From Massariosphaeria phaeospora (taxonomy: Eukaryota; Ascomycota; Dothideomycetes; Pleosporales), in NCBI GenBank assembly GCA_011032825.1, contig JAADJZ010000024.1, positions 310,001-374,000 of the forward strand: a DNA stretch of 64,000 bases. The letters run 5' to 3'. This document shows, piece by piece, positions 38,701 to 61,647 of the stretch. The translations under genes were made by a program, and so were the position numbers. Below the pieces are notes generated by a model. It was not told the DNA's origin and searched no databases. It worked only from the letters and a program-made list of their open reading frames with translations. Each line of letters opens with the position of its first letter. The stretch's first letter is position 1.

Positions 38701-40999
38701 CAGAATCATCAAGTGCCAGTCGTTCTGTTTCCGCTGTATACGCCGTTCCACGGAGCAGGGTGTACCTTAGATTGCGAATCTGTTCTGGCAATCCGCTGAG
38801 AGGTATCTCTGTGATGAGGCGTAGCGCCCAAGAAGAAGGCTAGACGAGAGGATTAGTAGGAACCTCATTATAAGTGAACATGACTTACAGATTTCACCTC
38901 CTGATCTCTGGTAAGTGCGCCAGAAGCAATCAACCACTGAAGATATTTGCCGATGGAGAATGTCTTGGAACGAACCAACTCTGCAACAACGCGGAAGACT
39001 ACACTATGTTCAATACTTCTATCCTCGCTGGACGAGTGAAGATAGGAAAGTATGCAGCCATCAACATCTGCGCCCTCATGGCCCCATCTTCGGATCAATC
39101 GGGTGACAAGATACACTCTGTGTGAACCCTCTCGATACAACGAAGAAGCCCAGCGAAGGACTGTTCCGATGAGGCTGCAAGCGTTGGCATTGAATTCCAT
39201 GCAATCGAATGCAAGTTTTTCTATGCGAATGCGAGCCGTGTAGTCTATAGCGTCCAGTAAGTTGTAAATGCACCGAGGAGGCTTCCGGGCGTCAGGAAGG
39301 ACATCGTTCATGGGCGACGACAACCACCTATTCCTTTGATCGAGGCTAGCAATAATCTGGGCTAGCTGCGGATGCGGTTTTCTCCTAGACAACTGGTCTA
39401 GTATGCTCCGATGTTTCCCCCAGGTCTGGGGTTTCAATAAGCATGATGGTTGAGTAACGAGGACTCTTGATATGGTATTCTCGAGGAATCCCAGAAGTGG
39501 AGATGTGGGACACTCTTCTTCAACCTGATAGAGCTACATAAAACACATTAGCAACAGCCTCCTCAGACAAGTATACATACGCATACCTTTTCAGCATGGC
39601 ATAGCAGATACTCAGCTAGGCGTTTACCTCGACGCCGAGAGATAGTGAGATCCGTCCAGTTAATAGATATGAGAAGGAGCCAAATGAACAAGCGTTCCGG
39701 CAAACACGTTTCGAGGTTGCTGAGGATCCATTCCAAAAAATGGTCTGCCTCAAGAAGATGTTCTTTATATAGATGTGTCACCAATTGGAGTCTGTAGGTG
39801 GTTAGCAAAGAAGATATTCTAGGCTGAAGGGTTCCTGACGCATAGGTTATACGGGGCTTCCACTCCATTTGGCCAATACTCGCAATAGTAACATCGAGAA
39901 ACTGCTCCACGGCAATTGTCCAGCCCCTGACCCATGAATTAGTACCGGGTTGTCCTTTGCGCTTGTGGGCTCGCATTTCATTGATCCCTACACATTTGGC
40001 CAGCCACAAAGCTCTGGGAATGGGTATGTTCTTGTTCAGGCACTGCTCCAGCAGCACCTTGCCGGTGATTCCATGGGGAATAGTACGACTCAGCCGACGC
40101 AGGCCAATTGTTGGATTTGCCAGATCATGGAGCCACGTCTCTCGAGTCGAGTCCCGCAGTGTTAGGCGTGGCGGAGGTTTGAAAGTATTTGTCGATGTGA
40201 CACGACCACAAGATTGCCGTTTGTCCAGCACAGCAACGAACAGCGTCGACAGCGTCGACAATCCAGATTTGCTCTTCAAAGTGGGCCACAGCCCAGGCCG
40301 AGCGGTGTTGGTTTCGTTCATGATCTGCACTTTGTTGCTGAAGCCGTTCTTCACAACCCCTTCAGACAGCGTGTCCTCCGGATGATTACCTATCCATGGA
40401 AAGAGATCGGCAGTTTCTGAGGAGCAGCAGTTAGCCGCATCCCACTTCCTTGATACTTCACACTTACTTCCTCCCGAAAACACCATGGCAACTGCCGGTG
40501 CCTCCAGACTTGGCAATTTCATGACATGCTCATGCTTTACTCCTGTTCCACCAGGGACAATACGCCGTGTCTGAGAACCACCGCCTGGAAGAGAAGAACC
40601 AGGCCGCGGTGGCACGGGCAAATTCACTGTTGTAGCGGCAGTCTGGCCTTGCGGAGACTGGAGGGGCACATCGGCGACGTCGCTCGGGAGCATACTGAAG
40701 AACAGCGGCGGTTTCCCTCGAGGAGCTGGCCGAACGCCATCGTAAGAGCTCGTGTGTAGGCCATCGAGCGGAGCCGGCTTGCTCTTGGTGGAGCCCGGTC
40801 CGCGGCCTTTGGCTACGACCTTAGCGGCGGGCCGGCGGTCGCTATCGAGGGCGGGATCGATGCAGTCGAGCTGCGGGACATGTTGGGCAGTGTTGTTCGC
40901 CTGCTTCGAGGACCGCCGCCGCACGTTGCTCCGTGGCGGCCCGCCACTCCCGCGGTGCTGTAGAGATTCGTGAATCCCCAAGCCAGGACGAGAAGTCAT
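35750..40999 (-). CDS. MED12: Mediator of RNA polymerase II subunit 12 (kinase module)
   Basis: Encodes 1618 residues in nine exons: 40999-40468, 40416-39840, 39791-39587, 39533-38889, 38839-38541, 38494-37314, 37265-37024, 36975-36689, 36638-35750. The Med12 N-terminal signature is clear: KNGFSNKVQIMNETNTARPG, FKPPPRLTLRDSTRETWLHDL, RRLSRTIPHGITGKVLLEQCL and IPRALWLAKCVGINEMR, then the EHLLEADHFLEWI helix block. The C-terminal 150 residues are Gln/Pro-rich and end in FGARRV. It activates the CDK8-cyclin C kinase module in the nucleus. The fifth intron (38495-38540) has a GC donor (GCAAGT); frame and phase exclude the nearby GT. Two introns (51 and 48 nt) are multiples of three without stops, so they look open. 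Confidence 0.93.
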
Positions 41000-41985
41000 C
41001 GCACGGAGCGCGGAACCATGGTCGGAAGGAGGGCTGGCAGACTGGACGGAAGCAGGTCGACGAGGAGCTGGGAGCTGGACGCAGCGGAGGGAGCGCAGGA
41101 CGTGGCGAAGGCGGACGCGAGAGACAGGACGGTAGACTCTAGAGAGCGTGGCGGGCGCGGTAGACGGAGTGGTGGAGGCCGGGCGAGGGTCAGGGTATGT
41201 CGACTAAGGACTTGCGACTGATCGGGACGACAGGGAGTCGATCAGCCGTCGAAGCCGGCGGCGGGTGGAGCTTGCCTTGTCCTTGCGGCGGCGTGCGCGC
41301 CTGGCCTGCCAAAGGGCCTCCGTGCACCAATATATTGCCGCTGCTAACATCAACACCGCATGCTTCGTCACCAGGGTGTCCGCCGGTCCAGCAGCACGTC
41401 TAGCGGCTCACGTTACGCATCTGTTGTCTCTGCCAGACTGGCCGCTGTGAGCTACCTGGCTAGCCGTCTCCACCCAAGTGCACGCAGGAGCCGTCTGCTT
41501 GGAGCACAACAGCCGCGCCCTCAGGACGAGCAGCAGGACCTCCACACCACCAGCGGTGGCACGAGCGGCTCCCAGATGGCACACTGGCTGCCCCATTCCA
41601 GGGCTCGTTGGGTACTTCCACACTGCCTTGTCCCCCAGTGCGACCTCATCCCCTCCTTTTCGCCAGACTCCAACCGTCGCCTTGCTCGTGTCCGGGAAGC
41701 AACAATAGCACCGGATCTGCCTCTGACGCTCTCGCCGCTGATTGGCGGCCGGCCGTCACGGCTCGATGCCGGCGGCGCTCTCGCTTCGGTGTGACATTCG
41801 TGCTCAGAGGCGGCCGTGCGCCAGCAACCGCGTCCTCGGCATCGACGACACCTCCGTCAAACGTCGCTGTCCCACACCTCCACCGGCATTTCACGGCTGC
41901 CGCCATCCATCTTCACGCGCTCATCAACGACCCGACTGCCCCGAAGTGCTCCGTCAGCAACGACCTCCTGTCCAGCAGCCCCGCA
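41000..41985. promoter_or_regulatory. Divergent promoter region MED12 / Asterix
   Basis: 986 GC-rich bases between divergent start codons. Open frames occur in several phases, as expected of GC-rich DNA without stops, but none has a motif. No TATA box. An ATTGG box (reverse CCAAT) occurs at about 41740-41744. Confidence 0.4.
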
Positions 41986-42700
41986 ATGGCGTCAAAGAAG
42001 GATATGCGGCGCGCCGACCTCAGTGCGTTGCCCTCAACCCGCGAGATCCAACCAAACACACCACAGTCACGTGTCCCCTAACAGCATGCCAGTCGTCCCA
42101 TTCTCGGAGCCGGCCAAGGCGACCTCAGAGAACGCCGTCGGAGACATGTCCAGTATGCACCCGCCTCGGCCCCAGTCAGTCAAGACGCCCTTCTAATTGC
42201 TTGCGCGTCCAGGTACGATGGCCAGCACGCTCCCCATGGCTGCAGTAAGTCGTCGGCCCCCATCCCCCCTCCCTGAGTCACACAGCTGATATCGTGTCTC
42301 AGATCTTCACCCGGAACAAGTAAGAGACCCAAGCAGGATTCGATGGAGTGGTCTGGTTCTAACGTGCTCAGAATGATCGGCTGGGTCTCCGTCGTCTTCT
42401 CGCTGCAGTCGTGGCTCGCTGAGACTCCCGAGCAGAAGAAGACGTCTACTACGCCCGCCTACTTCTCCGTCGGCATGGCATGTAAGTACTCCTACACTTG
42501 AGTCTAAGCTATCACACTGACCGCGTCCAGTCATGTCGCTCATCGTTGTAAGTCATTCCCCTGGGCTCCACTCACTACGAGGTCTCCAGGACTGACGTCT
42601 GTCTGCACAGGGGTACATGCCATTGTTCCTTCCCCCGCCGAACATGCGTGCTGGCACTGGCTCTTCGACCGAAGCGCCGCCCGCCATGCCCCCCTCATAG
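41986..42700 (+). CDS. Asterix/PAT10-type ER membrane chaperone subunit
   Basis: Encodes 120 residues from seven small exons: 41986-42022, 42093-42152, 42213-42244, 42303-42319, 42372-42481, 42531-42547, 42611-42700. The joined protein reads MASKKDMRRADLIVPF..., then STLPMAAIFTRNKMIGWVSVV, and ends with FMSLIVGYMPLFLPPPN and a Pro-rich tail. This is the conserved layout of Asterix (WDR83OS): a conserved N-terminal amphipathic part and three hydrophobic helices. The human protein pairs with CCDC47 in the ER to help insert multi-pass proteins. The first intron must use the acceptor at 42091-42092, not the earlier AG at 42083-42084, to keep frame. Two 17-nt exons make automatic prediction unlikely to succeed. 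Confidence 0.9.
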
Positions 42701-43189
42701 ATCCATACTACAGTAAGCCTGCAGAGGAAGTTTGCGCGAGCAGCTTATGGTGGAGCTTCATTTGATTGTAAGCCTGTAGTCACGTGTAAGATTAGAGAGC
42801 GTCGGCAGTTAGAGTATGTACTTGTAATACGTCCAAGAATTGGAGCCCCTATCATTCCCATTGTGACCTGTGTGTGTTTCCTTGCAAAACCCATGTGAGA
42901 CTGCGAGATATGCCATATGCAACCGTTCACGTCAAAGACGAATAGCATTGGCTTGATTGAACAGCAAGAAAGGCGGCATACGTCTATTGAAGAAACGCCG
43001 CGGTAGCCAGCAGACAACTAGTATCTCTTTCATAGCCCACGTTCACAGTATGGACAGGGAGTGCAAGAGACGTATCAAGGAAGCACACAAGCAATACTAC
43101 AGCAGCCTCAACCAAGCTTGAACATCCTAATCATACAGCGATTTTAGTCCCCCACGAGACCATGCAGCCCTTTCCCATGCACCCACCCC
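42701..43189. other. Convergent intergenic region
   Basis: 489 bases between converging genes. A 90-codon minus frame (42745-43017) has no motif and no splice partner and is not accepted. It should hold 3' untranslated regions. Confidence 0.4.
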
Positions 43190-44424
43190 TCAAGCCGTCG
43201 GCTTAAACTGCTGATCCAACAACCTCTTCTCATGCTCCTCATCAGCCGCAATACTCTCCGGCGTCGTCTCCTCCGCAAACCCCAGCACCTTCCAATCCTT
43301 ATCCTCGACCCCGCGCATCATGCGCTTCTGCAGCACAATATACTCTCTAACCCTCTTCGTCGTCACCGAGTCGATGGGCTGGTACAGCGCGTCGTCCTCG
43401 TCCTTGGGCGCCTCGGGCGCAAACCCCGCGGGCGTCCACATCCACGACGGCGCGGGCCCGGCGACGCGCTTCTTCGCCTTGAGCGTCGTGGTGCCGCGCA
43501 CCGTGAGCGTCTGCTCCGTGTCGAGCAGCACGGTGACTTGCCGCACGCCTGTCTCGTCCCAGCCTGGAAACGGCATTTCCGCGCAGCGGTTGTCGATGGT
43601 GCGGCTGTGTTTGAAGCGGACGGTCCAGTCCATGGTGGAGCCGTTGGGGCGCTGCGCGATGCGCTGCTTGAACTGCTTGGCTAGGCCGCCGTTGCACAGT
43701 TTTTGCAGTTTGGCTTCGTCGCCGCTGCAAGGGACGGTCAGTCGCATGGTCAAAACGCGAATGGGGATGTGGTAGAGGGAGGGACAACGTACTTCGCAAA
43801 GGCCTTGTATACGTGCTCGTACTTCGTCCTGGCTGAGTTTTTGAGGTGCCCGTAACTCCAAGGGTAGTAGTCGACGATGGGCCTCGGCCGGCTGTCCCTC
43901 AGTTTTCGGTATCGAAAGAGTCTGAGTTGGCTTGATGAGCAATGCTCCCGTGTACCGAGTGGGGAGTGCTACTCACGATAGGTACATTGTGAAATACGAC
44001 TTGAGGTATTTCCACTCGTACTGCCACCTGGCGCGCGAGAACACACTCGGTAGCTTTCGCCACGACGCACGTATAAAGGACCCTGCACCCAAGTCAGAGC
44101 CAGACACAGAACGTGGGCGCTCGACGCAGTACATGCGACCGCCCGCCCGAGCGCCCTTCAAAGACCTTGCGTACCCTGTAGGATCCCCAGGTCGTCCGGG
44201 ATGAACCGTTCATTGGCACCATTCTCTGCAATAGATACACTGGGAGCCTGCTCTTTCAAGTTGTCCGCAATGCCCTCAGCACCCGCAGGATCTGTTTGCC
44301 GCTTTCTTGCTTGCATTCTTGCTTGCGCCGGAACCGTGGAGGAAAATGGCTGGGCGGCCGGGCGGTGGAGCACATATTGGCGGTACAATGGCCGCAGCGT
44401 TCGAATGGGCATGTGTATCGACAT
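43190..44424 (-). CDS. Mitochondrial ribosome receptor/mL45-like protein (Mba1, Tim44-like domain)
   Basis: Encodes 339 residues in exons 44424-44175, 44082-43977, 43921-43793 and 43724-43190. The start is followed by an Arg-rich, acid-poor presequence (HMPIRTLRPLYRQYVLHRP). The core from about residue 120 has the Tim44/Mba1-like pattern YEHVYKAFANGDEAKLQKLCNGGLAKQFKQRI, then MDWTVRFKHSRTIDNRCAEMPF, VRQVTVLLDTEQTLTVRG and VREYIVLQKRMMRGVEDKDWKVLGFAEETTPE. Such proteins dock mitoribosomes to the inner membrane for insertion of mitochondrially made proteins. I preferred the ATG at 44424 over an in-frame ATG 141 bases upstream because it begins the presequence. Confidence 0.82.
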
Positions 44425-44947
44425 GGCGGGGCGCGGGCGCTGATGAGTTCGTGGTCGCGTCTTGCAGAGAGCAATAGTGCAGGTCCGGCTGAACTTCGGG
44501 AGACTCGACTCCCGCTCTCCGCCCGAGCGACATCGCGCAAGGCCAGTGAATTGCACGATCAGCACGAAATAAGTTGTAAAGCCGCGGACGAGCAGTTGGA
44601 GGTACCCTTAATGTATATCATTCTACTACTCCGATATATACATAGCCTATTGTACAGATTCGATAAAGTCGAACCGCGGAGGGGATTATCCCAAGCTCTA
44701 TTTAGTAACGATTCAGCGCTCATTCCCTTTTTGCTCTACCCTGCCAGATAGATCAGATATGTCTGACTAACGCAACGAATTTGCAGAACAGATCCGACCT
44801 CCCATACACGCCCTACATTTGATATACACAGCCAGGGAATAATGTACATTGGGTATTGAAGGGAGAAGCGGCCAGTGTCTAAGTCAACGCCGCCCAAATG
44901 CAATTGGAACATACAAGTACAGCCGAGATCCGCGGATCGAAGGCAGG
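44425..44947. other. Intergenic between two minus-strand genes
   Basis: 523 bases. They should include the promoter of the Mba1-like gene and the 3' untranslated region of RIM2. The plus-strand frame 44296-44751 is antisense to the Mba1 leader and has no motif. Confidence 0.4.
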
Positions 44948-46191
44948 TCAGGTATTACTGCTGGTCCCAAGCAGCTTTAGCACACCCTCATACGTCCCGA
45001 ACATGATGGCAGCGCTAGGAACCACCCGAAGCATATGGGGAACCAGGCCGCCGTATAACGCTGCCATGCCTTCTTCTTTCCAGATCAGACGAAAACATTG
45101 GGTTAGTCCCGTATACTTCAGGTGGCCATTTTCATGCGGGGCTTGTCGAAGTCGAGTGCGGATAACCTAGCGGCGTATGTCAGTAAGTAGACAATGAAGC
45201 TACTCCATTCAGAGACGATGGACGGCCCGGAGAACTCATACCTCGTGTGGATAGGTGATCAAGGCAGCCACAAATTTGGCGCATCCCGCTGCAGAGATTT
45301 TGCCAGTCCAAGAGACAGTCTGGTCCCAGAATGTGAGCGGACGCCCGCTGTTAGCCACCCTTTCCTCTCGCTTGGCCAGGGAGAGTTTCATTTGTTCGTA
45401 CAGCGTCCACTGCAGCGTGCTCTCGGTTACGCCCAAGTAACTTGCGCTCAATCCACGGTAAAGGCCCGAAACTCCCTCCTTGCGCAACGTCTGCATGGTA
45501 CAGTCATAAGCGTTCTTATATTGGCGCCCTCGCCCATCCGCATGCGTGTTCTTGTCCAGTTGCAACCGAGTCTTTACAAGCCATATTGGGTTCGTTGCTG
45601 TTCCCGTAAGGATACCGGCGAAAGCTGCGGCGCAAAGATGTACCCAAGCAGCTTCTTGCCCATTGTTGAAGTTGTTGCTGATGATCTTCTTTCCATTGCC
45701 ATACGTGTAGAAATTGATTGCGCGTGCGGGAACGACTCCAACGAGGTTCGGCCCAAGACCCTTAAACAACGCCCTCCAACCTTCAGCTTTTGGAACCTGC
45801 AGTAAGATATCTCCTGTTTCTCGAATATGTAGCAGAGAGCTTCGTGCGAGGGTCATGGTCTCGATCGGTGGCAGTCCCCGGGCGGTACGGGCGGTAGCGA
45901 GATGTTGCTGGTAGTACGTCGATTGGAGACGCGTCTTCAGTACGTCGAGTGGCGCCGTAAGTGTTGCTGAGGCCATCCCCCCAAGGCTACATCCGTTATC
46001 AGCCGTGTCGAGGACCTGGGCTTGGAATTGACTGCTCACCCGCCAGCGATGAAATGCGCCCATGACTTCGCAAAGGGCGCGCTCTTGACTGTTACCGGCG
46101 CGCCATCGGGACTCGGGAGCACTTCACCGGTCTCTCGAGACTGTGTAAGGAATCCTCGCGGTTGCGGTTGCGCCGCGTCTTCCAAGATCAT
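44948..46191 (-). CDS. RIM2: Mitochondrial pyrimidine nucleotide carrier RIM2
   Basis: Encodes 371 residues in exons 46191-46040, 45986-45242 and 45166-44948. The ATG at 46191 follows directly after an in-frame TAG. Three mitochondrial-carrier repeats are visible with their signature motifs PLDVLKTRLQ, NPIWLVKTRLQ and YPHEVIRTRLR. Rim2-type features are the stretch FKGLGPNLVGVVPARAINFY and the long insert after the first helix. It exchanges pyrimidine nucleoside triphosphates across the inner mitochondrial membrane and supports mtDNA maintenance. Introns are 53 and 75 nt. It lies at the outer edge of the MAT-flank block and diverges from CIA30. Confidence 0.95.
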
Positions 46192-46661
46192 CTATGGAAG
46201 CGCAATGGCGAGCTCGTAGGTATGAAATAGAAACGTGTATGCTAAGGATTGATGTGATGGATGATGGAGGAAGGAGGTGACGCTGTCGTCGAACAGAGTG
46301 TCAAGCCATCATCCAGAAATTTTACCAAAGCAGCCTAGCCCACATTTCGACCGCCGCACACTCCCGCTCACTGCCCTGGCAGAATCCATGCCGATGAAGA
46401 CGCACTTCAGGCAATCCTCTTACATATAACAGTGTAGGAGCTTTTAGCAATAATTTGTTCTTGTCTTTACAACGTCCTACGTAGCTAACCCATTTACTCA
46501 CTGCTAAAATGTTCTGTACTGTCGAGAGCCCACAATGAATTATGCCAAGGGAATGACGTGCATATCGACAGAACGATTTGGTGTAGATAGCTCCGCAACG
46601 GACCCGGCTCCTATGCTGCCATTGCTGCTGTCCAGCGCGCTGCCGACCACTACCCATCACG
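46192..46661. promoter_or_regulatory. Divergent promoter RIM2 / CIA30
   Basis: 470 bases between two divergent genes for mitochondrial proteins. No clear TATA box. Co-regulation is plausible but only inferred from position. Confidence 0.4.
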
Positions 46662-47593
46662 ATGCGTCCCTCTGCGCAATGTCTTGCCCCCGGTTTCCTC
46701 CGACGGAGCTTGGATGAGCTCAAGCGCCTGTCCAGCTATGGTGAGCAATGCTTGCCCGTCGAACTGTGTGCGCGCGCGTGAGCTCAGTGTTGACTTTTTG
46801 CCCGTTACCAGCCATCAAACTCGAAGGCTTGCACGCGCCGACCAAGCCCCTGCCTCTCATCCTATTCGACTCGCCCCACGATCTCTCCCGATGCAAGCGC
46901 ATGAGCGATAAAGACATCGGCGGCTTCTCCACCGCGAACCTCGACTTCCATCCCGCATCACCTCCGGCACCATCGAACGCCCGCTTTCACGGCACGATAT
47001 CTATTGAGCTACCGCGCGACCAGCCGCGTGTCCAGAGGACAGGTTACGCAGCGTGGAGGACGCTCGATCGAGGAGCCACCATTTTCGGGAAGCAGCTCTG
47101 GGATGTGAGCCTCTACACATACCTGGCGATCCAGTTCAAGTCAGATGGCCGTAAATACTTTGTAAACGTGCAGACCGAGTCAATTGTCCCGACAGACATT
47201 CACCAACACCGCCTGTATTCGAAAACACCGGGAGAATGGGAGACCATCTTGATCAAGTGGAACGAGTTCGTCCGCACAAATCACGGCCAGGTGGTGGAAC
47301 CCCAGCGGGAGATGTTGACACAGAAGGTGCGCACAGTGGGCATTGGTCTTATTGATAGGATACCTGGGCCGTATGATCTGAGCATCAGTCGCATATGGAC
47401 GACCAACGCGGGGCGTGACGATGACATTCTAAACACTGTTGAAGATCAGGGCACCATTGGAGGTCTTTCGGCTGCGGCGGCGAGCTATCGAGAGCTGAGC
47501 AGGCCGCGGCCTCCGAAGGATGTAGCTTCTGAGGTGGACTCAAATACGACGAGGGCATATTCTGGGAAGGACTCAAATAAAAAGGGCAGTTAG
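46662..47593 (+). CDS. CIA30: Complex I intermediate-associated protein 30
   Basis: Encodes 286 residues in exons 46662-46740 and 46812-47593. The first exon gives MRPSAQCLAPGFLRRSLDELKR, joined through a split Ala codon to LEGLHAPTKPLPLILFDSPHDLSRCK. The CIA30/NDUFAF1 domain follows (GYAAWRTLDRG, YLAIQFKSDGRKYFVNVQTES, DIHQHRLYSKTPGEWETILIKWNEFVRT, VGIGLIDRIPGPYDLSISRIW). It is an assembly factor for mitochondrial NADH:ubiquinone oxidoreductase. An ATG at 46748 lies inside the intron and is rejected. CIA30 next to APC5, COX13 and APN2 is a recognised arrangement beside the MAT locus in Pezizomycotina. Confidence 0.95.
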
Positions 47594-47962
47594 GGTGTTC
47601 ACGGCACTGCTGAATTGATGAATTGTATCAACTGAACTCTCCGTAGGATGCTGACATGCATTGATTAAGTAGGCATGTACTTGTTCTCGAATTTCAAGAG
47701 GGGTGAACATATCGGGAGGGTTGGACCTGGGCCCGCAGCTCCCCAGTCACACGTGACCACGCCTCGTTGCGCGTCGGAGCTGCCAATTCAGAGGTCGCGT
47801 TAGAGCTCCTGCCTCGCAATGAACTTCTAGTCTCGTCTCACTAAGTCGCCATCATGCTTGTAGCTCTGCCAACCTTGACTGCCTAGGTAGGCCTCATCTA
47901 AATACACCAAAACCGTGGGTGTTCCCGCCGTGCAAGCTCAGCTGTAGCGCCTCCATCCCGCC
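47594..47962. other. Intergenic, APC5 promoter side
   Basis: 369 bases between two plus-strand genes. A CACGTGAC element occurs around 47750-47757 (E-box-like CACGTG core). Otherwise nothing notable. Confidence 0.35.
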
Positions 47963-50595
47963 ATGGCAACCCCGCGATACCTGACTGCGCACAAAATCAG
48001 CCTCCTCATACTGGTCAAGATATATTGCGGCTCACCATTACCAGCCTCCGCTACGATCCCCGTCCTTTCGTTTATCATCTCGCACAGTATTCCCTCTGTA
48101 TCCTCCACAGCACGCGCGCGTCCTTGCCTTGAAAATGGCGAGACATCGTTCTCCGTGGGCGCTTTTGAGGATGCTCTCCAGGGAATCGCGTCCAGTATGC
48201 CGGGCCGCACACTCCTCGACCTGTTCCTAAAGCACATGTGGGAGCTGAGTTCATTTGACACGTTGCATGATCTGTTCGACGGCATGGGTCATCTGGTTCG
48301 GGAGCGAGATGATGCCGCCGCGGAACCATTAGCTGACCGCATGTATCTCTCTCGTACCTCGCCTGTTGGGGCATTCGTCAGACGCGCACGTTTGGAATTC
48401 ATCAGGTTGCAGTTCGACGACGCAATGAAGCTTTGGTCTGCCTTCATCAGGTACCGAGCTCCAACTGCACAGTGGACGAAGCGACTCGCGGGATACGCCC
48501 TAGATGGGGTTGACAAGATTGCTGGTGAGATGGGTTTGGGCCCTGGGGATGATTTGTACGAGGTCGCGTATGGTCATTTGGCCGTGGAAGAGAGGGAAGG
48601 TACAATCAGTATCGACGACTTCGACCGCTTGCTAGAGTTCCAGCTCGATCAGCTACAGCGTAAGTGCACTTCTTGCTCATATCTACCATACAGCTAACGA
48701 CTGCAGGCCTTGGTTCTCGCGTGCCTGATGAAATGAGAGAACAACTTCGAACTATGCTGGGACCGTCTGGCGTCGCACTTCGGCAGTCGCATTTAGTGAA
48801 GTTCTTTGACGCCTGGAAAGCCGGAGACTACACTTCAGCATTCGACAACCTGCACAGATACTACGACTATGCGATGCAGACGCGGGAGAAGATACACTAT
48901 CAGTACGCCCTGCTTCACATGGCCATATTACAGGCAGACTTTGGCTGTTTCGGTGAAGCCATTGCTGCCATTAACGAGACGATTGCAACAGCAAGAGAAA
49001 ACCAAGACATGACCTGTCTGAACTTTAGTCTCAGCTGGCTGAATCATATGAGCAAAGCGTATCCACGACAGATGAAAGGCGCCGGATATATGGGGATGCT
49101 CGGTTCGGAGCGGGACGGACTGACGTTTCTGAAGGCAAAGGCCAAAGAGACGAGAATGTACAACCTGTTGAGCGCAACGCTCTTGAACGAGGCTAAGCTA
49201 TGTCTTGCATCAGTATGCTATCCGTATCCTACAGAGCCAATACAACGTACTTACGCAACACAGGGCGAGTCCATCCCTCGTGCGCTCGAGTACATGTATC
49301 AGGCTTCCCATCTCCATATCAAGGAGAGCATCAACAACCACGGCAGCCAAATGCTCCTCCTAGGGTCTCTCTTCTCCCGGCTCGGCATCACGCACCTATC
49401 CGACGTACATTGTCAGCTACTTCTGCATTGCTACGAGCACAGCTGTCCAATCGATGAGAGGATCCGATCAGTCTGCAGATGTGCGTTGAGTGTAAGTATT
49501 TATCAACCCCTATACGAGGATCTGGTGCTGAATATGTCAAGGCAGCGCAATACGGCAGATACGACGAGGCACTCGATCTCTTACAAGCAATCCATGCGAC
49601 GACCCATCGATCGTTGAAATACCATCAGTATCTGTTTCTGTGCACAGGTTTAGTCAAGCTCAAGAGGGCCGTCCGTCGGTAAGGAAGATTTGTGTCGTTG
49701 TAGAGCTCGCTAACTCGTGTAGGACTGACTGGACAGCCTGCGAATCCCTCCTTTCCTTCCTCAAGCCAGATTCGTCCACGGACCCGGAGATGTGTTTCAT
49801 GCTCTCAGAAGCCCGTGTCGAATACCTAATGGCCCGGGGCCTGCACTCGGACGCATTCAGTGCCATCGAAGCCCTCTCGACCTCGCTAAGAGAGGAAGGA
49901 GTCGACATCCTCCATCGCATAACCATTCTCCTTGCGAAGGCAGAACTCTTCAGGAGAGTGGGGAAGCCCACGATGGGCTTCAGCGTTACTCTCCGCGCTG
50001 CAAGCGTAGCATTCAAGGCCCGCCTCATGCCGTGCTTGTGGTCAGCTACCGGACTGCTTGCGAGTATTCTGAGCGAGCTTGGTGAATATGATGCAGCAGC
50101 GAGGTTGCTCCATGCTGCCATACCCCAGGTTCGTAAACCCCTTTGTAGTGGCCTCTGCGGCGGGAGATGTCGCTCACGCATGAATAGGCACTCGAGCACA
50201 ACGACAATTCTTTGGTCGGCGTGCTATACTCGCATATCGGCGATTCCTACATGGGTCTCGCTGGCCTGGCCGACACGTCTGCCGCCAATGGCGCCCGGCT
50301 GCGAGCGGCGAACGTGAGTCGCGCCGAATTGTACATCAATAGGGCTCAAGAGAGTAAGAAAGCCCCATTCGCAGATCACTGGGTTCGCAGACACTTTTCG
50401 CTTCGTTCCACTGACATGCTCGCAGGCTTCAAGAAGGTGGAGGACATTACCGGCGAATGCGAGCAATTGATGAAGAAAGCAGTCATCGCGAGGCTCCGAG
50501 GCGACGAGAAGCTGGCTGAAGAGTGGGCGCAGAACCATAATCGGGTGTGGGAGGCGGGACTGGCAAGACTCGTCGATAGCGAGACTTCGGGGTAG
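47963..50595 (+). CDS. APC5: Anaphase-promoting complex subunit 5
   Basis: Encodes 769 residues in seven exons: 47963-48659, 48707-49212, 49264-49491, 49542-49678, 49723-50128, 50188-50353, 50426-50595. The N-terminus (RYLTAHKISLLILVKIYC) and the block SHLVKFFDAWKAGDYTSAFDNLHRYYDYAMQ are diagnostic for fungal Apc5. TPR-like helical repeats follow to the end (for example AAQYGRYDEALDLLQAIHA, and LLASILSELGEYDAAARLLHAAI). It is a scaffold subunit of the nuclear APC/C ubiquitin ligase that drives mitotic exit. All introns are 44-72 nt with good consensus. It is a standard MAT-flank gene. Confidence 0.93.
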
Positions 50596-50886
50596 GTGTG
50601 AAGGCCACGGCTGTGCGATGATTCGTTTCCAGACTCCTCTTCGTGGTCTTCGAATGCTCTAAACAGTATGAGAGCTGCTGGCACGATCTAATGCGAATTA
50701 ACAACACTTTACTGATTCCTGTTGAATGTGCGCCATTGGGCAATGCCTTGACTTGTTCGTGAGGCATATTCTCGCACAAAGGAAATGAAACCTTGAATTG
50801 GGAGTCTCTATCCTATGTACAGTACTTCAGGTCCGAACTTCTACATCGACGCGCTGACAGAGGAAAGCATTCATGTTGGACCGAGC

Positions 50887-51524
50887 TTATTCGTCCTTCT
50901 TATGGAAGTTGACCTTGTCGTTCCAGAAGAGTGTCTGCATCGGCTAGTCAGTTGGGGTCGGGTTCGCCTTTCGAGGTATGTAGGAGGGGGCAGCAATGCG
51001 GAGTAACGGATCAACGTGCCTTGTCGCCATCGCCCCAGAAGTAGTTCTTGGTGCGGATGTTCTGGTACGCATATTCGGGCCGGTCGTCGGGCGGCGGCTC
51101 GTGGGCCTTGTGCTCCCAGTGGGCGTCCCACCTGAGCTTTCCGTTTATGATGGCCAGGGCGAGGCAAGGGAGCGCGATGCTGCGGAGGCGGTTAGCACGA
51201 GCTGAGTTGAGCTGCTGCGTAGGCGGTGTTGTGTTGGAAAAGGCATGCGGCCTTACTAGACGGTAAGCTTGCGCCAGTATTCTGCGTCCATGTTAGCCCA
51301 TGTCCCGCCAGGCCGAGCAGCTGTCGGGCCCGCCACATGGATATTCACTCACCACCGCTCTCGCCGCCGTGCACCTCAATGCGAGCGCGCTCGCGGTTGA
51401 ACTCGTTGTCTTCGGTGCCGGCGAACTGGCGAGGGGTCTCGGAGCTGTAGGGGCGGGGGCGCAGGGGAACGCGGGCGAGCCCCAGGCGCGTCGAGGAGCG
51501 CGCGATGGCGCGCTGGGCAAACAT
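50887..51524 (-). CDS. COX13: Cytochrome c oxidase subunit VIa
   Basis: Encodes 134 residues in four exons: 51524-51353, 51281-51257 (25 nt), 51179-51020, 50934-50887. A mitochondrial presequence (FAQRAIARSSTRLGLARVPLR) precedes the COX6a domain. That domain holds EYWRKLTVYIALPCLALAII (membrane helix), HWEHKAHEPPPDDRPEYAYQNIR and NYFWGDGDKTLFWNDKVNF. It is a small nuclear subunit of complex IV. The third intron (50935-51019) starts with GC (GCACGT); the nearby GT donor would break the conserved GDGDKTLFWN. It diverges from APN2 (307 bases apart), an ancestral MAT-flank pair. Confidence 0.95.
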
Positions 51525-51831
51525 TGCTGCTTTGGAGCCCGGGTGGAGTGGAGAGGGTCGCAATTGGGAGTCGTGGATAGGAGGGTGGAGGACTCGTTTG
51601 AGCGTGACGAAAGCGAGCTTGCATGTGCACCTCACCTGCCGGCCCCAGCCCAGGTGAGGCGGCTGCTTGGCGGGTTTGCGCTGTTTGAGCCCGCCCGCGT
51701 CCGATGCCCAACGTGACGTCGCGCCTTCACCGCTCGCTAGCCTGCTGTCGCGCCGGCGCGTCCTCTATTTGACCTTGGGAGGTGTCTTCGTCCAGCGGAG
51801 AGGTAATGCGCCCGTCTGCACCCTCGTCGCC
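51525..51831. promoter_or_regulatory. Divergent COX13 / APN2 promoter
   Basis: 307 GC-rich bases between the two start codons. No TATA box. The two genes have kept this head-to-head arrangement across many ascomycetes (established knowledge of MAT flanks). Confidence 0.5.
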
Positions 51832-53929
51832 ATGGTCCGCATCACCACCTGGAATGTCAACGGCATCCGCAACCCGTTTGGCTACCAGCCATGGCGCGAG
51901 AGCCGCTCATATAGCACCATGTTCGACATTCTAGAGGCAGACATCGTGGTCATGCAAGAATTGAAGATACAGCGGAAGGACTTGGGCGACGACATGGTGC
52001 TCGTCGATGGCTGGGACTGCTATTTCAGCCTGCCCAAGCACAAGAAGGGTACTGCCTATCCGGTCTGCGTGCTCGTCTTGGGAATCACATATTAATATTA
52101 CCGCGCAGGCTATTCCGGTGTCGCTATCTACACTCGCCAGGCAGTATGTGCACCCATCCGCGCCGAGGAGGGTTTGCTGGGCGTGCTCTGCCCGCCGGGC
52201 TCCTCGACGCCCTACCGAGCTCTGCCAGAGGACGCCTGTATTGGAGGATATCCTTCGGCCGCTCAGGTAGCTGATCTAGGCGTCGACGCCGCCTCTCTAG
52301 ACGCCGAGGGCAGGTGCGTCGTTCTGGAGTTCCCAGCCTTTGTCGTTTTCGGCGTCTACAGCCCTGCGAACAGCAATGGCCAGCGCGACGACTTCCGCTC
52401 CGGCTTCATCACCGCCCTGGACACGCGCATCCGCAACCTCGAGAAGCTGGGGAAGAGGGTCATTCTGACTGGCGACCTGAACGTGTCGCGCGAGGAGATG
52501 GACACGGCGAGGGCGGAAGAGCAGATGCAAAACGAGGGCATCACGCGCGAGGATTACTTCGCCAGTCCCAATCGGCGCCTCTTCAACCAGTTGGTCTACA
52601 ATGGCAAGATCTACGGCGAGCGCGATGAGGGCAGGGAGAAGCCAGTGCTGTGGGATCTTTGCCGGGAGTTCCACCCGGACCGAGAGGGCATGTACACGCA
52701 CTGGGAGCAAAAGATCAATGCGCGCCCCGGGAACTTCGGGTCGAGGATCGATTATGTGCTCTGTAGCATCGAAATGAAAGACTGGTTTGCCGAGTCCAAT
52801 ATTCAAGAGGGGTTAATGGGTTCGGATCACTGTCCTGTGTATGCGTCGACCAAGGACGTTGTCGACTGTCGAGGGGAGCAGGTCCACATGCTCGATCTCT
52901 TGAGTCCGCCAGGCGTGTTCAAGGACGGGAAAAGACTGAGGCCGTACAGTCCTGCCAAAGACATGCGTCCGCTTTCTGGCCGCCTCTTGCCCGAGTTCGA
53001 CAAACGCAGAAGTATCAAGGATATGTTCACTAGGAAGCCCTCACTGTCGGCATCAAAGTCTACTTCGAATTCTCTTGCGGCGCCACAGGATGCAACCGCA
53101 CCGGAGCTTTCACCGGCGTCCAACAAACGCGCAACTGCTCCGGTGCAGGACAGTGTGTCAACCGAATCTTTGTCTCAGCCTGCAGCGCCCGCCAGTCCGC
53201 TTGGCGCGTCGCAAAAAAGGCCAGCCGCTGCGTCGCCCGCTGCACGGCCACCCAAGCGCAGCAAAGCCAGCACTGGCGGCCCATCCGGCTCGCAGTCGTC
53301 CGTAAAGGGCCAGCAATCACTCATGGGGTTTTTCACACCGAAGGCCTACGGAAACAACTCACCAAAACAGCCAGCCAAACAGCCAGCCAACCCTCTCTCG
53401 ACCGCCGCCGAACCCCCCATACCCGACGCGTCGCCCTCCTCCACACAAGATGCCGCCGAAGCCTCCGTAGCCAACGCGTCGCCCTCCTCCACACAAGATG
53501 CCGCCGAAGCCCTCATAGCCAACACGTCGCCCTCCTCCACACCGACCTCCTCCATGCCGACCTCCTCAGTCTTCATCGACCCGCAAGCCACCAAAGAATT
53601 ATGGACTATGCTCTTCTCCAAGAAGCCGCCTCCCCGCTGCGAAAGCCACAACGAACCCTGCATAAGCTTCAAGACGAAGAAAGCCGGCATGAACGCCGGT
53701 CGCCAGTTCTGGACGTGTTCAAGGTATGTTTCGTTCCCGTCGCCCGGACACGCTGCTGCTGCTGCTGCCGCTGCCGCTGCTGTAGTATTCGACTGACTGA
53801 CTGACTGGTTGACTGACCTTGCTGCGCAGACCGATCGGCCCAACGGGGCAGAAGGAGTCCGGCACACAGTGGCGCTGCGGCACGTTCATATGGGCGAGTG
53901 ACTGGAATGGGCCGGCGGCGGAGAGGTGA
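51832..53929 (+). CDS. APN2: AP endonuclease 2 (DNA-(apurinic or apyrimidinic site) lyase)
   Basis: Encodes 643 residues in exons 51832-52048, 52109-53723 and 53830-53929. An exonuclease III-type endonuclease domain (residues 1 to about 350) carries TTWNVNGIRNP, IVVMQELKIQRKD (catalytic Glu), VILTGDLNVSREEMD and FGSRIDYVL, and ends with GSDHCPVY. A disordered linker contains a PCNA-binding PIP box QQSLMGFF. A C-terminal GRF zinc finger (RCESHNEPC...GRQFWTCSR...QWRCGTFIW) is split by the second intron. It repairs abasic sites in the nucleus. APN2 is the classic immediate neighbour of MAT in Pezizomycotina. The second intron carries a GCT/CCGCTG repeat tract. Confidence 0.95.
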
Positions 53930-55525: not shown

Positions 55526-56420
55526 CTATCTCAACATAAATACAGGTACATATCAGCAAGCTGTAGCTGCACCACGCAAGAGCACAGTGAAGCAATTCAC
55601 CCTCACTCAAATATCGCATCGCACATTATGCCGTCTACATCCACTTTGCGATTATCACGACCACGCATCTCCATGTCCCCCAATTTCAGGTACGTCTTCT
55701 CCAGCATCCCTATCCTCACACGAATAGAGGTGCATATACCTAAGCTGTAGCCGTACCAAGCAAGAGCACAGTAGAGCTATTCACCCTCGTCCTTTCTGCA
55801 GTATACATTCTAGTGTATGCACAAGGCTTCGTCACGGCTGTCCAAGCACGCATTGTACGTTATCGTGGCTACATGAGGCTTCGTGACCTCTGTCCGAGCA
55901 CACGATATGCACTATCATGTCTACAGCAAGGTATACTGCCTCCGTTTCGGCCTACGCATTACGCACTATCGCGCCTACATCAAGCTTTGAAGTATAGCTT
56001 CAAGAGCTTTCGCATCTCGACATGAATACAGACTGACATAGAGAACTAGAGCCATGCCATTCCAAACCACAGCAGCGCATTCACACATGTGCTATGTCCG
56101 CATTATGCCTCACGCCGTCTACACCGCGCAGACATCTCAATGCACCAACCCTATTCTGAAGTCAACCCTCAAGAGCTTCCCCGTCTTAGCATGAATACAG
56201 GCTGCACATCGAGAAGCTGAAGCCGTACCATCCCAAACCGAAGCAGTGTATCCACCTACATGTATGTTCGCAAAGTACATCATGCTGACTATGTCCGCAT
56301 TGTGCATTATACTGTCTACAGCAGCGCATGCGCCTACTGACCATGTCCGCATTGCGCATCCTGCTGTCTACATCAACGCATCCACCCACATTCCATGTCC
56401 GCCTTGCGCATCATGGGGAG
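55526..56420. repeat. Degenerate tandem-repeat array beside MAT
   Basis: At least four diverged copies of a longer unit begin near 55527, 55713, 56001 and 56170, each reading like CATGAATACAG...AAGCTG(A/T)AGCCGTACCA...AGCA. An interleaved shorter unit of about 50 bp (TGTCCGCATTGCGCAT...TGTCTACA) recurs near 56095, 56290, 56343 and 56395. Copies differ by point changes and indels. The last short unit lies inside the MAT1-1-1 coding end. No open frame spans the array. Confidence 0.6.
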
Positions 56421-57283
56421 GAGGGTGGCGTCGTGGTCGGCACCTGGGACGAACGGACCAGCCAAGCCGAAGGGGAACATGCTGCTGTATGCAGCGCCAT
56501 TGCTGTCCTCTGGCTCCGGGACCGAAACAGCGTGGAGCGCCGCGATGTCCTTGTCAAGCTGCTGGATATGGCTTGGCTTGGCTTGACGCTTAGCGACGCG
56601 TCCATCTCGTACCCGACTAAGGAAGGTTGACGAGGCGGTGTTCTTGTCGGTGGAGTAACCCTGGGCATAACCGGTGCTGCGGACGTAGTTGATGATGTCC
56701 CCAACAGACAGGCCATTGGCTGCAGCTTCGGCATCCTCAGCATCCTCGGAGTTCGGGTCAGGTGTGAATTCGCGAGAGACTGTTGGCGCGCCCTCTCCGT
56801 TGATGACAAGCTTCCATCCAAGACACTCAAGGTACATCTCAGGTGCAGGTATCTTGAGATGCGGACAGATGAGGCGGAGGAACTCATCCAGAGGCGCACG
56901 CCTCTTGCCGACCTGATCCCGCATGGTGGACCAGGCCTTTGCCATCAAGGACCAGAGTGGCTTGTTCGGATCCGCTTCCCACAGGACGCCCATAGGATTC
57001 GAGAGCATCTTCATTGGGATCTGCGCCAGACCAGGCGCTTTGATGAGGTAGCCTACACTTGCGTTAGTAGTGCACATGCATAACAGGTAAAGTCAAACTT
57101 ACACCTAAATGCCACGAAGGCATTCAGGGCCTTGAGAGGCTTGGGCGCCGGACCCAACAACACTGCTGTGGTCAGAGCAGCCTGGGCTGCAGGATCCGCC
57201 GTGCCAGCCAAAAGCCGGACCATTTCTTCGCCCGTGCAGGCCGCTAGGTAGCTTGCAACGTGATCGGCGTTCGGAGATGTCAT
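56373..57283 (-). CDS. MAT1-1-1: Mating-type protein MAT1-1-1 (alpha-box), 3' half of a MAT fusion frame
   Basis: Read alone, this gene encodes 286 residues in exons 57283-57103 and 57052-56373, with a 50-nt intron inside the alpha box (FRC codon split). The alpha box begins near residue 49 (PKPLKALNAFVAFRCYLIKAPGL). It continues MGVLWEADPNKPLWSLMAKAWSTMRDQ, with the conserved Trp, Asp-Pro and Lys-Trp/Ala-Lys positions of MAT alpha-HMG proteins, then LKIPAPEMYLECLGWKL. It is the transcription factor that specifies MAT1-1 identity. Its start codon has its own copy of the MAT leader, yet no stop separates it from the upstream MAT1-2-1 frame, so it may also be translated as residues 276-561 of a fusion. 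The last 15 codons come from a repeat unit. Confidence 0.9.
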
Positions 57284-57411
57284 GTTGGCTGGTTGTTGTT
57301 GAGAGACGTTTGTTAGGTGCGATGTGCAAAGAGTAATTGAAGTGGTGAGATTTTGAGGTTGGTGACGAGGTTGAGGGAAGAAGGAAGCTGGAGCGATGGG
57401 CGAGATTTTAT
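57284..57411 (-). promoter_or_regulatory. MAT leader copy A (upstream of MAT1-1-1)
   Basis: About 130 bases ending at the MAT1-1-1 start codon and closely matching copy B upstream of MAT1-2-1. It starts with a TATA-like CATAAAATC (complement of 57404-57411) and contains the shared TTTGCACATCGCACCTAACA. It is open in the MAT1-2-1 frame: CAA (57353-57355) stands where copy B has TAA. Confidence 0.75.
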
Positions 57412-58162
57412 GATGCAGACGGTCATGACGAAGCGACTCGGCATCATGAACGGAATCGGTTGGCACAGCCACAGCTTCCGGAAAGGAGTTGAAGTCGAAC
57501 ACCTCTGCAGGCGCGGTGAAGGTGGCGGTGCCTGGTGTTGCCTTTCGTGACTGTCGCTTCTTCTTCTCACCCGGGCGCCTTGGATTATACTTGTAATCGG
57601 GGAACCGGCGCTGGTGCTCCTCCTTCGCATGCTTGGCCATTGCCCTATAGCGATCCTTCTCTGCGGCGGGCAGGACCTTCCACTCGCGCGAGCAGAGAGT
57701 CGCTACAAGGTATTAGTATACTAGTCTAGAAAAGGTAAAGGTGTGATGAGACTTACAGATCTGCTGGACACTGAGGTCCGGATTCATGTCCTTGAACTGT
57801 TTGTGCATGGCATCCCTGAACATCATCCAGCAGTTCATGGGCCGGGGTGGCCTACGTCCTGCCGGCGGGCCAACACCAGCAGCCCGGCCAATAGGCTCGG
57901 CGCCAGACTGCGGCTCTGGCTCATGCTCTAGCTGGACAAGCGTGACCGCCCTATCGGTGTCATAGGTGATGCTGACCTGCTTTCCCTGGATGTCGCCGGC
58001 ATGTCGCATAAAGTACTTGGCGGCCAAAGGTCCGAAGACCCCTTCGATATTGCATGGGAGGTCCAGAGCCTTGGCGCCACCCCTGAAAGATTGGGCACAT
58101 TGCTCGAGCAAGTGTCTGAACGTACCAATTAGGCCGTGTTGGGTTGCGGTGTAGGATGACAT
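57284..58162 (-). CDS. MAT1-2-1: Mating-type protein MAT1-2-1 (HMG box), stop-less, reads into MAT1-1-1
   Basis: Exons are 58162-57757 and 57702-57284, continuing in frame to 57103 and MAT1-1-1. The 54-nt intron sits at the conserved Ser codon of the HMG box. The MATA-HMG box spans about residues 105-182: RPPRPMNCWMMFRDAMHKQF, then SREWKVLPAAEKDRYRAMAK, and ends FPDYKYNPRRPGEKKKR. An N-terminal domain precedes it, and about 50 residues of native tail follow (to roughly residue 232). The frame then enters the second leader copy (about 43 residues) and reaches Met1 of MAT1-1-1 as residue 276. The full fusion would be 561 residues. Ancestral MAT1-2-1 probably had its own stop and a longer tail, now lost. 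Confidence 0.9.
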
Positions 58163-58297
58163 GTTGAGTGGTGTTTGCTTCGAGAGGTTTGTTAGGTGCG
58201 ATGTGCAAAGAGTAATTAAGCGAGTGGTAGTGAGAGTTTAAGGTTGGTAACGAGGTTGAGGGAAGAAGGAAGCTAGAGCGATGGGCGAGATTTTATG
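58163..58297 (-). promoter_or_regulatory. MAT leader copy B (upstream of MAT1-2-1)
   Basis: Second copy of the leader, directly upstream of the MAT1-2-1 ATG at 58162. It has the same TATA-like box (complement of 58290-58297) and the same spacing to the start codon within a few bases. In the phase that is open in copy A, it carries TAA at 58238-58240. It is the expected promoter for the whole MAT unit. Confidence 0.75.
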
Positions 58298-58391
58298 GGC
58301 GAGGGTGCCGCCAAGACTGAGCGTGAGTTCGCTGCCTTCACCTTCGTTCCCCCAGCCTCTCACTAAGCGGGCCACTCACGCGCTGTCTGCC

Positions 58392-58454
58392 CCACTTTTG
58401 CGACGTCTTGTTCCACTTTTGCGAGGCCTTGCTCCACTTTTGCGAGGCGTTGCC
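58392..58454 (+). repeat. Three tandem copies of a 21-bp unit
   Basis: Units start at 58392, 58413 and 58434, each CCACTTTTGCGA followed by a variable GGCCTTGCT-like part. They lie about 100 bases upstream of leader copy B, thus in the distal MAT promoter. Repeated factor-binding sites are possible. Confidence 0.8.
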
Positions 58455-59985: not shown

Positions 59986-61647
59986 TTAAGCCGCTGGCGC
60001 CGCAAGAGTAGCTAGATCACCCTCCACAGCAACATTCTGTAAAGTGAAGCCTTCCTCAACGACCCACTTTTGATGGTATTGGTGGAGCACAGTGCAAGCG
60101 GTTCCAAGAATCAGCAACCCGGGTGGACGACTGCCCTCCTCCTCCACTGCAGCACATACATGTTCGAGTGTTGTTCTGATCACTCTTTGATCTGGGCAGC
60201 TTGCGCGCTCTACTACAGCGCATGGTAAGCCGACCGGATAACCCTTGACCTGTAAACTATGCACTAACGAAGATAGTCGATGCAGGGCCATTAGGAATAC
60301 TACGGTGCGCGAGGAGACGTACTCAGGAAGGTCGGGTGCCGCTCCTTGACGGCCGGTACCGGTACATATAAGAATTTGGTCCGCAACGCTGCGATGAGTA
60401 GCAGGAATAGCCGCAAACAAAGGCGCACTGAGTGCGCTAGTAATTCCAGGGAGCACGGTGGGTGTGTAACCATGTGAGTGGAAGAAGGCATACTCCTCTC
60501 CGCCGCGACCATATATGTACGGATCCCCCTGTTTGATGCGGACAACAACCTTTCCTGACTTGAGCCCATGCAAGCCTAGCTCAAGCAACTCATCTTGAGC
60601 CTTGTCAGCGTTGCCTGGAAACTTTCGAGCGATATGTACTGTTGCACGGCGCGGTACCAGATCTAGTATAGCGCTGGGTACCAACTTATCGGCGAGTATG
60701 AGATCGGCAGATTGGATGGCTTTGTACGCCGCCCGAGTCAGAAGGTCGGGATTGCCGGGCCCTGATCCGGCGAGTATGATCTGTCCTGATGGGGTTGTGT
60801 TACTGGTCGTAGGACGATCGAATTTGGTTGGGTGCGAGCAAGTATAGTTACGCAACAAGGCCTCCACATCAGCATCAGAGATGGCGGCAAGGCGGCGAAG
60901 TGGCCAGTACTCGCAAATCTGGGCCAGCCAACGTATGCGTCGCCCACGTGCTGCCTCCACGCTCTCCATAGTGATGAGCTTATTGAATGTGGCCGATTGG
61001 CCAACGTCTTCATCCTCGATCTCAAGATCTTGAAACAGCTCGACAGCATGGTCTTCCTCCCAGATACGTCTGCGAATTGTTCCAAGCCTGTCGACCGCAT
61101 CGCCGAGGTTGGGGGGTAGGGACGCGGCTATCTCTCGTCGAATTCTGGCTGATAGTTTGCAACCTTTCCCAGAGGTTGTCACGCCGATTTGCAAAGGTCC
61201 ATCTGAATGCGTGGAGAGGAGCGTGAATGAACAGAGATTGGGAGCATCTACAACATTGACTGGTATCCTAAGCCGGCGACACAGGCTCGATATATTCGTG
61301 CCTAGCCAAAGTTAGCAATGTGATAGAACTAGGACGAAAGAATAGCTACTTAGGTTCTGTTTGCCACCAACGGTCACGAAGACGGCATCAACGACCCTGT
61401 CAACCTCAGCGCGGCCAAGACTGGACAGGTCACTTTCTTTGAACTCGCGCTTGAGCCACAGCACTTCGCCCTCATCAATGCGCTTCACCAACCCGTAGTG
61501 TAGGGTGGCATCCTCGGGGGCGATGAGTATCGGCTTTGCCCCGACCTCCAGGGAACGCGAGCACCGCGCGCCGGCGAGGGGATTCGATCCGACGATCAGA
61601 TGCACATGCGACGTCGAATCGATTGCGGTGAGGAGTGCAGGAGCCAT
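59986..61647 (-). CDS. MET1: Siroheme synthase / uroporphyrinogen-III C-methyltransferase
   Basis: Encodes 537 residues in exons 61647-61350 and 61301-59986 (48-nt intron). The N-terminal part has a Rossmann-type start (HVHLIVGSNPLAGARCSRSLE) and PVNVVDAPNLCSFTLLSTHSD, as in the precorrin-2 dehydrogenase domain. The C-terminal half (from about 272) is the SUMT methylase: GSGPGNPDLLTRAAYKAIQSADLILADKLV, VVRIKQGDPYIYGRGGEE, VLPGITSALSAP and TVVFLMALHRL. It methylates uroporphyrinogen III on the way to siroheme, the cofactor of sulphite and nitrite reductases, so it is needed for methionine synthesis and nitrate use. The combination of both domains is typical of fungal Met1. It sits between MAT and the PIM-like flank. 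Confidence 0.94.

Follow-up and report, generated by a model that had tools for sequence, protein, structure and literature searches.

Can one protein that carries both mating-type DNA-binding domains replace two? A locus of the saprobe Massariosphaeria phaeospora (Pleosporales, incertae sedis) provides a natural test of this question. It lies in a stretch of 64,000 nucleotides, hereafter the window (positions 310,001 to 374,000 of contig JAADJZ010000024.1, assembly GCA_011032825.1), and coordinates given without a prefix refer to this window. The contig that holds it, C17, measures 664,330 bases, and the MAT site is far from the contig ends. The passage from partner-requiring to self-fertile fungi is usually inferred from sister species; in M. 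phaeospora a single genome combines a fused gene, a leader in two copies and a relic that preserves the lost MAT1-2-1 3' end.

One spliced frame carries both mating-type boxes

The initial annotation had described MAT1-2-1 and MAT1-1-1 as one uninterrupted HMG-alpha reading frame on the minus strand, and a base-by-base reading confirmed this description. Once two short introns are spliced out, a single frame of 561 residues runs from 58162 to 56373 in three exons (58162-57757, 57702-57103 and 57052-56373), with the HMG box first, the alpha box second and no stop between them. The frame containing FPDYKYNPRRPGEKKKR is indeed open from 57702 to 57103 with the MAT1-1-1 ATG, at 57283, in the same phase, and the proposed extension to 56373, yielding 561 residues with both DNA-binding domains, was recovered exactly. 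The predicted mass of the fused product is 61.7 kDa. Both introns start with a GTAAGT donor and end with TAG: intron 1 (57703-57756, minus strand, 54 nt, branch-like motif CTAAT) interrupts the HMG box, and intron 2 (57053-57102, minus strand, 50 nt, branch-like motif CTAAC) interrupts the alpha domain. Both domains scored well above the Pfam cut-offs: HMG_box at residues 105-173 (57590-57850, minus strand, split by intron 1) with 73.6 bits against a cut-off of 25.4, and MATalpha_HMGbox at residues 320-483 (56610-57151, minus strand, split by intron 2) with 151 bits against 28.1.

The fused gene model itself is not new, being already in public annotation: an identical 561-aa protein of M. phaeospora has been deposited as one gene, under a name that mentions the alpha domain alone. 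We found no description of the M. phaeospora fused MAT gene in the titles and abstract openings of open-licence papers.

The linker is read from a duplicated leader

The junction lies at 57412-57413 on the minus strand, where MAT1-2-1 sequence reaches 57413 (..CTGCAT) and a leader that begins with CATAAAATC starts at 57412. This leader, which is the MAT1-1-1 leader (57284-57412, minus strand, 129 nt from CATAAAATC to the inner ATG), is stop-free in the fused frame and encodes a linker of 43 residues (233-275). The MAT1-1-1 start codon follows in frame (57281-57283, minus strand, residue 276). Another copy of the leader precedes MAT1-2-1 (58163-58297, minus strand, 135 nt from CATAAAATC to the ATG) and has one TAA in the frame equivalent to that of the linker. 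The visible duplicated leader that had been claimed for this locus is thus borne out: the two copies share 93% identity over a block of 71 nt and 86% over another of 63 nt, and their global alignment contains 13 substitutions and two 3-nt gaps. Moreover, the outer and the inner ATG sit in nearly equal sequence context. The heptamer CATAAAA, which heads both leaders, is found at 6 sites when both strands of the window are counted.

Comparison with relatives showed what each gene has kept. The MAT1-2-1 half stops short of the C-terminus that is conserved in unfused relatives (AFAFRxGADxxxTLP and the like), and the N-terminus of MAT1-1-1 is present behind the junction. The join is therefore not inside the MAT1-1-1 coding region, this gene being present from its own ATG with its leader kept. 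CAT is the sole stretch common to the two sides of the junction, and the observed join keeps both copies of it; the crossover bases given here are a reconstruction, for which the leader copy of MAT1-2 and a relic described below were used.

MAT fragments are scattered in the genome

When the genome was searched at the DNA level for the 2,251-base MAT stretch, 22 matches (E up to 0.012) were returned, the locus itself and 21 others. These 21 fragments lie at six places (loci L020-L025, L049 and L050), namely C8:939108-940216, C23:108646-111644, C23:117153-117340, C17:244489-244743, C17:431001-431668 and C9:788303-788489, so that four of the six are on contigs other than C17. All derive from MAT1-2-1, MAT1-1-1 or the leader of these genes and are decayed and shuffled; at three places (C8, C23:108-111k and C17:431k) pieces of both genes lie mixed within ~0.7-3 kb, with their order or orientation changed. 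A first Pfam search had suggested that C8 carries a second intact MAT locus, but this was rejected: the pieces there have insertions and a shuffled order. Three stretches adjoining the MAT locus (2251, 2251 and 1530 bases) matched only themselves in the same genome, and hence MAT sequence is scattered in pieces while the three tested adjoining stretches are not. A further control stretch (36000-51600, 15.6 kb) yielded four matches, all of them short and weak (E 3e-7 to 4e-6); its self-match was absent from the listing, which makes it a weaker control. A paper on Mycosphaerellaceae and Teratosphaeriaceae reportedly names MAT gene fragments in its title, and M. phaeospora likewise has MAT pieces away from the locus.

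Some features of these places were observed in passing. At L050:4153-4367 (C23:117153-117367), in an apparently intergenic stretch, part of the MAT leader is present about three times in tandem with a unit of ~50 bp. Another dispersed sequence, at L022:4580-4783, recurs at 82-95% likeness at three places on C12 and three on C23; common to C8, C23 and C12, it stands among the MAT pieces on C8 and C23. A piece of MAT1-2-1 exon 1 (L024:4030-4243) has three insertions (16, 4 and 24 bases) that largely repeat adjacent sequence and look like repair scars.

A relic on C9 keeps the lost end of MAT1-2-1

The C9 relic (L025) is identical to the locus over 54 of 54 bases (57466-57413). It loses identity exactly at the junction and continues with HVELDGVLVPELDGDAFAFRTGADEES, the kind of MAT1-2-1 end that unfused relatives (P0036 and P0038, for example) possess and that is absent from the fused gene. 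A second relic piece on C9 matches 57517-57478 (40 bases at 87.5%) and is followed by ~90 unmatched bases before the first piece; in the two pieces combined, 5 of 94 bases differ from the locus. Because the relic matches up to the join and then runs into a normal C-terminus, an unfused MAT1-2-1 that differed only slightly from the present gene must have existed recently, and its carrier would have been either a direct ancestor or a strain of the other mating type. Moreover, since the fused gene, the leader copy and the relic share one genome, the MAT1-2-1 side of the break can be located to the exact base. Among the matches other than the locus itself, none was found that spans the junction or the inner ATG. 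The fusion in M. phaeospora is probably recent.

Relation to other fused MAT genes

Homologue searches, in which 7994 candidates were scored each time, gave 109 matches, and 108 with a profile of four fused proteins. Both domains were present in four of the homologues found: those of M. phaeospora, Decorospora gaudefroyi and Curvularia homomorpha, and one metagenome entry. The MAT protein of Cochliobolus luttrellii, listed in PMC2999568, is not named among these homologues, and the homologue list is therefore incomplete. The M. phaeospora gene looks like another case of a rare kind that is already known in a few other fungi. It is unusual in two respects: the leader of the second gene, whose own start is retained, serves in translated form as the linker, and a relic of the missing piece survives elsewhere in the genome.

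The four fused proteins do not have the same junction. Curvularia (Cochliobolus) homomorpha (Q9Y8D5, P0003), also of the Pleosporales, likewise has a single protein (705 aa) with the HMG box followed by the alpha domain, at residues 134-201 and 352-545 as compared with 105-173 and 320-483 in M. phaeospora. Its join, however, is inside the coding part of MAT1-1-1, whereas that of M. phaeospora is before the MAT1-1-1 ATG. More precisely, MAT1-2-1 is kept in C. homomorpha to ..FRDGADGDAT, the alpha half starts near residue 6 of the relative P0013, and the MAT1-1-1 start and leader, both kept in M. phaeospora, are missing. Decorospora gaudefroyi (P0002, 725 aa) has the same order, HMG then alpha, and keeps almost all of MAT1-2-1 (match to residue 324 of the 336 of P0058), whereas the M. 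phaeospora MAT1-2-1 lacks its C-terminus. About 50 residues of P0002 (312-361) fall outside both gene matches, and its alpha N-terminus may be complete; a translated MAT1-1-1 leader is possible in this linker too, which is known from the protein alone. The metagenome protein (P0004, 638 aa) also has HMG then alpha, with an alpha match that begins at residue 46 of the relative P0005; its MAT1-1-1 start seems to have been lost, unlike that of M. phaeospora. As a separate observation, HKIS occurs both in residues 312-361 of P0002 and in the M. phaeospora linker where CATAAAATC is read, and four residues can be chance.

Trees were computed from rows hand-picked among the 109 matches (30 for alpha, 39 for HMG, each with all four fused proteins). 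One clade of the four fused proteins was rejected (p_AU 3.3e-7 for alpha, 1.2e-15 for HMG), as was a fused clade without P0004 (p_AU 2.8e-4 for alpha and 4.5e-7 for HMG), and a pair of M. phaeospora and C. homomorpha was rejected in both trees (p_AU 0.01 and 2e-7). The pair with Decorospora was rejected by the HMG half (p 1e-5) but not by the alpha half (p 0.19), and the pair with P0004 was rejected in neither tree (p 0.37 for HMG, 0.23 for alpha). The initial annotation had proposed an independent, traceable case. Its independence holds with regard to C. homomorpha in both trees and to Decorospora in the HMG tree only, and neither tree sets M. phaeospora apart from P0004; its traceability has gained new support, as the C9 relic keeps the pre-fusion 3' end of MAT1-2-1. 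All together, the trees and the relic suggest that the M. phaeospora fusion formed independently; with regard to P0004, the junction differs and the relic argues for a younger fusion in M. phaeospora.

Fusions of idiomorphs are also known in Crivellia, Didymella, Stemphylium, Sclerotinia and Cochliobolus luttrellii. Most fusions of this set leave two genes; in C. luttrellii a single fused gene begins with the alpha box. PMC3574095 places the fusion junctions of C. luttrellii, Crivellia, Didymella and Stemphylium at 7, 4, 3 and 4 shared nt, respectively, and includes Sclerotinia among the idiomorph fusions. As presented there, such fusions join at very short shared stretches; M. phaeospora shares CAT at most. 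Exophiala sideris and E. viscosa, presumed homothallic, have one gene with both boxes, but the HMG domain is described inside the alpha box in PMC10411609, whereas the boxes of M. phaeospora stand in tandem.

Predicted products of the locus

Because no stop remains between the boxes, a fully spliced outer transcript must encode the fusion, and we predict that a fusion protein is made from the locus. The open linker alone is weak evidence for such a protein, since an open leader in the right phase is not rare by chance: among 5000 dinucleotide shuffles, 25% (upstream copy) and 60% (downstream copy) of the leaders were stop-free in one given frame, and the phase requirement multiplies this by 1/3, resulting in a chance of ~0.08-0.20. 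Of the 2119 ATGs on the two strands of the window, 634 are preceded in frame by 129 stop-free bases. Chance as an explanation of the whole frame was nevertheless rejected: the linker alone could have arisen in this way, but the domain pair with the leader copy could not, and the gene pair together with the leader copy is far beyond chance. We found no coding constraint on the linker: of the 13 leader substitutions, 6, 5 and 2 fall on the first, second and third codon position, respectively, of the fused frame; both leader gaps are 3 nt long and too few to argue from. In an AlphaFold2 model (48-row alignment, pTM 0.41), read only for confidence along the chain, pLDDT in blocks of ten residues was 95-98 for the HMG box (111-170), 86-95 for the alpha domain (331-430) and 35-57 for the linker, which is predicted to be disordered, as a tether would be.

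Shorter products may accompany the fusion. A separate alpha protein is possible because the MAT1-1-1 leader, its TATA-like box and its ATG are retained; an inner promoter in leader 2 is plausible, and an alpha-only product from the retained ATG would have 286 aa and 30.8 kDa. When intron 2 is retained, the frame stops at the end of the intron, giving a product of 351 aa that includes the HMG box but misses most of the alpha domain. We tentatively suggest, as a possibility that has the odds against it, that the promoters are nested: the MAT1-1-1 core promoter and leader would act as the promoter of the alpha-only form and at the same time encode the linker of the fusion, intron-2 retention would provide the HMG-only form, and the balance of the three products would replace two mating types. 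Judged from gene content, M. phaeospora is likely homothallic.

Selection on the two halves

We compared the relics with the locus over 11 ungapped blocks, some of them hand-trimmed at gaps and some overlapping on the locus, and counted 9/20/19 differences over codon positions 1/2/3. This count leaves out L022:5606-5682, L023:4688-4737 and 4782-4818, and all matches in L024, L049 and L050. Among the differing codons, 43 were completely readable, and in 31 of these the residue was changed. At these 31 residue differences, relatives favoured the locus in 22 cases and the relic in 5, with 4 ties, and the preference for locus over relic was seen in each half (9:2 for HMG, 13:3 for alpha). These counts indicate that, the linker aside, both boxes have been held by selection while the unlinked copies decayed, a signal that may predate or postdate the fusion.

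The MAT1-1-1 half lacks part of the basic region and of the C-terminal stretch that are found in relatives. The end branch of M. phaeospora measures 1.34 in the alpha tree (median 0.46) and 0.98 in the HMG tree. Given the reduced regions and the long branch, some loss of function is possible. A 52-bp tandem repeat (56285-56414) overlaps the last codons of the alpha half and apparently gave rise to its C-terminal tail, KADMECGWMR.

Proposed origin and alternative explanations

We propose that this is a derived mating locus of the self-fertile type, which arose when a chromosome with MAT1-2 and one with MAT1-1 underwent an illegitimate exchange. On the MAT1-2 side the break would have fallen ~40 codons before the end of MAT1-2-1 and on the MAT1-1 side at the TATA-like start of the MAT1-1-1 leader, a placement supported by the C9 relic and the two leader copies. 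The order expected to result is the one observed: flank, leader, MAT1-2-1 lacking the C-terminus, leader, MAT1-1-1 beginning at its own ATG, flank. With the join in phase and leader 2 stop-free, the outer spliced transcript would encode the 61.7 kDa HMG-linker-alpha protein. As leader 2 has been kept along with its TATA-like box and the ATG of MAT1-1-1, a second, inner transcript could provide the 286-aa alpha-only protein, and intron-2 retention the 351-aa HMG-only protein. Both boxes would be present in every nucleus, and a homothallic fungus would be expected. We give this proposal as a whole, an exchange leading to a fused self-fertile-type locus with one HMG-linker-alpha protein and possible alpha-only and HMG-only forms, a probability of roughly two in three.

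The retained signals can also be read as those of a locus that makes two proteins, with alpha expressed from its own promoter buried in the 3' part of MAT1-2-1, HMG obtained through intron-2 retention or early polyadenylation, and the continuous frame an accident. The MAT1-1-1 leader, TATA-like box and ATG are indeed kept in a context much like the outer one, intron-2 retention would yield the 351 aa, the chance of an open in-phase leader (~0.08-0.20) is not small and codon bias is absent from the leader. However, the outer transcript, when fully spliced, has no stop between the boxes and must encode the fusion, and the same domain order is found within one protein in Curvularia homomorpha, Decorospora and the metagenome entry; we consider that two separate proteins are an unlikely explanation. 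It could further be argued that sexual use has been lost and that the fused frame is the leftover of a decaying locus, in line with the long end branches of the alpha tree (1.34) and the HMG tree (0.98), the many MAT pieces elsewhere in the genome and an alpha half that has a reduced basic region and an altered C-terminus, its last residues lying in the 52-bp tandem repeat. Yet both boxes score well over the Pfam cut-offs and, at 22 of the 27 informative differences, it is the locus and not the relic that keeps the residue favoured by relatives, which makes such decay quite improbable.

An assembly chimera of two idiomorph haplotypes has also to be considered, given that a single assembly was examined and that the leader copies are similar. 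The leaders differ nevertheless at 13 bases and by two 3-nt gaps, the sides of the junction share CAT alone and so would have offered little overlap to an assembler, the site is far from the contig ends and three other database proteins have the same domain order. A chimera is thus very improbable, and a true fusion by illegitimate exchange is the reading that we retain.

Sequences around the locus

An Rfam search of the whole window returned no match at gathering scores. Upstream of the outer promoter, a 21-bp tandem repeat is present in three copies (58388-58453). The locus is bordered on one side by a gene for a protein with an Exo_endo_phos Pfam domain (52174-53796, plus strand), which we take to be APN2-like, and on the other by a gene with Pfam tetrapyrrole methylase and sirohaem synthase domains (59986-61194, minus strand).
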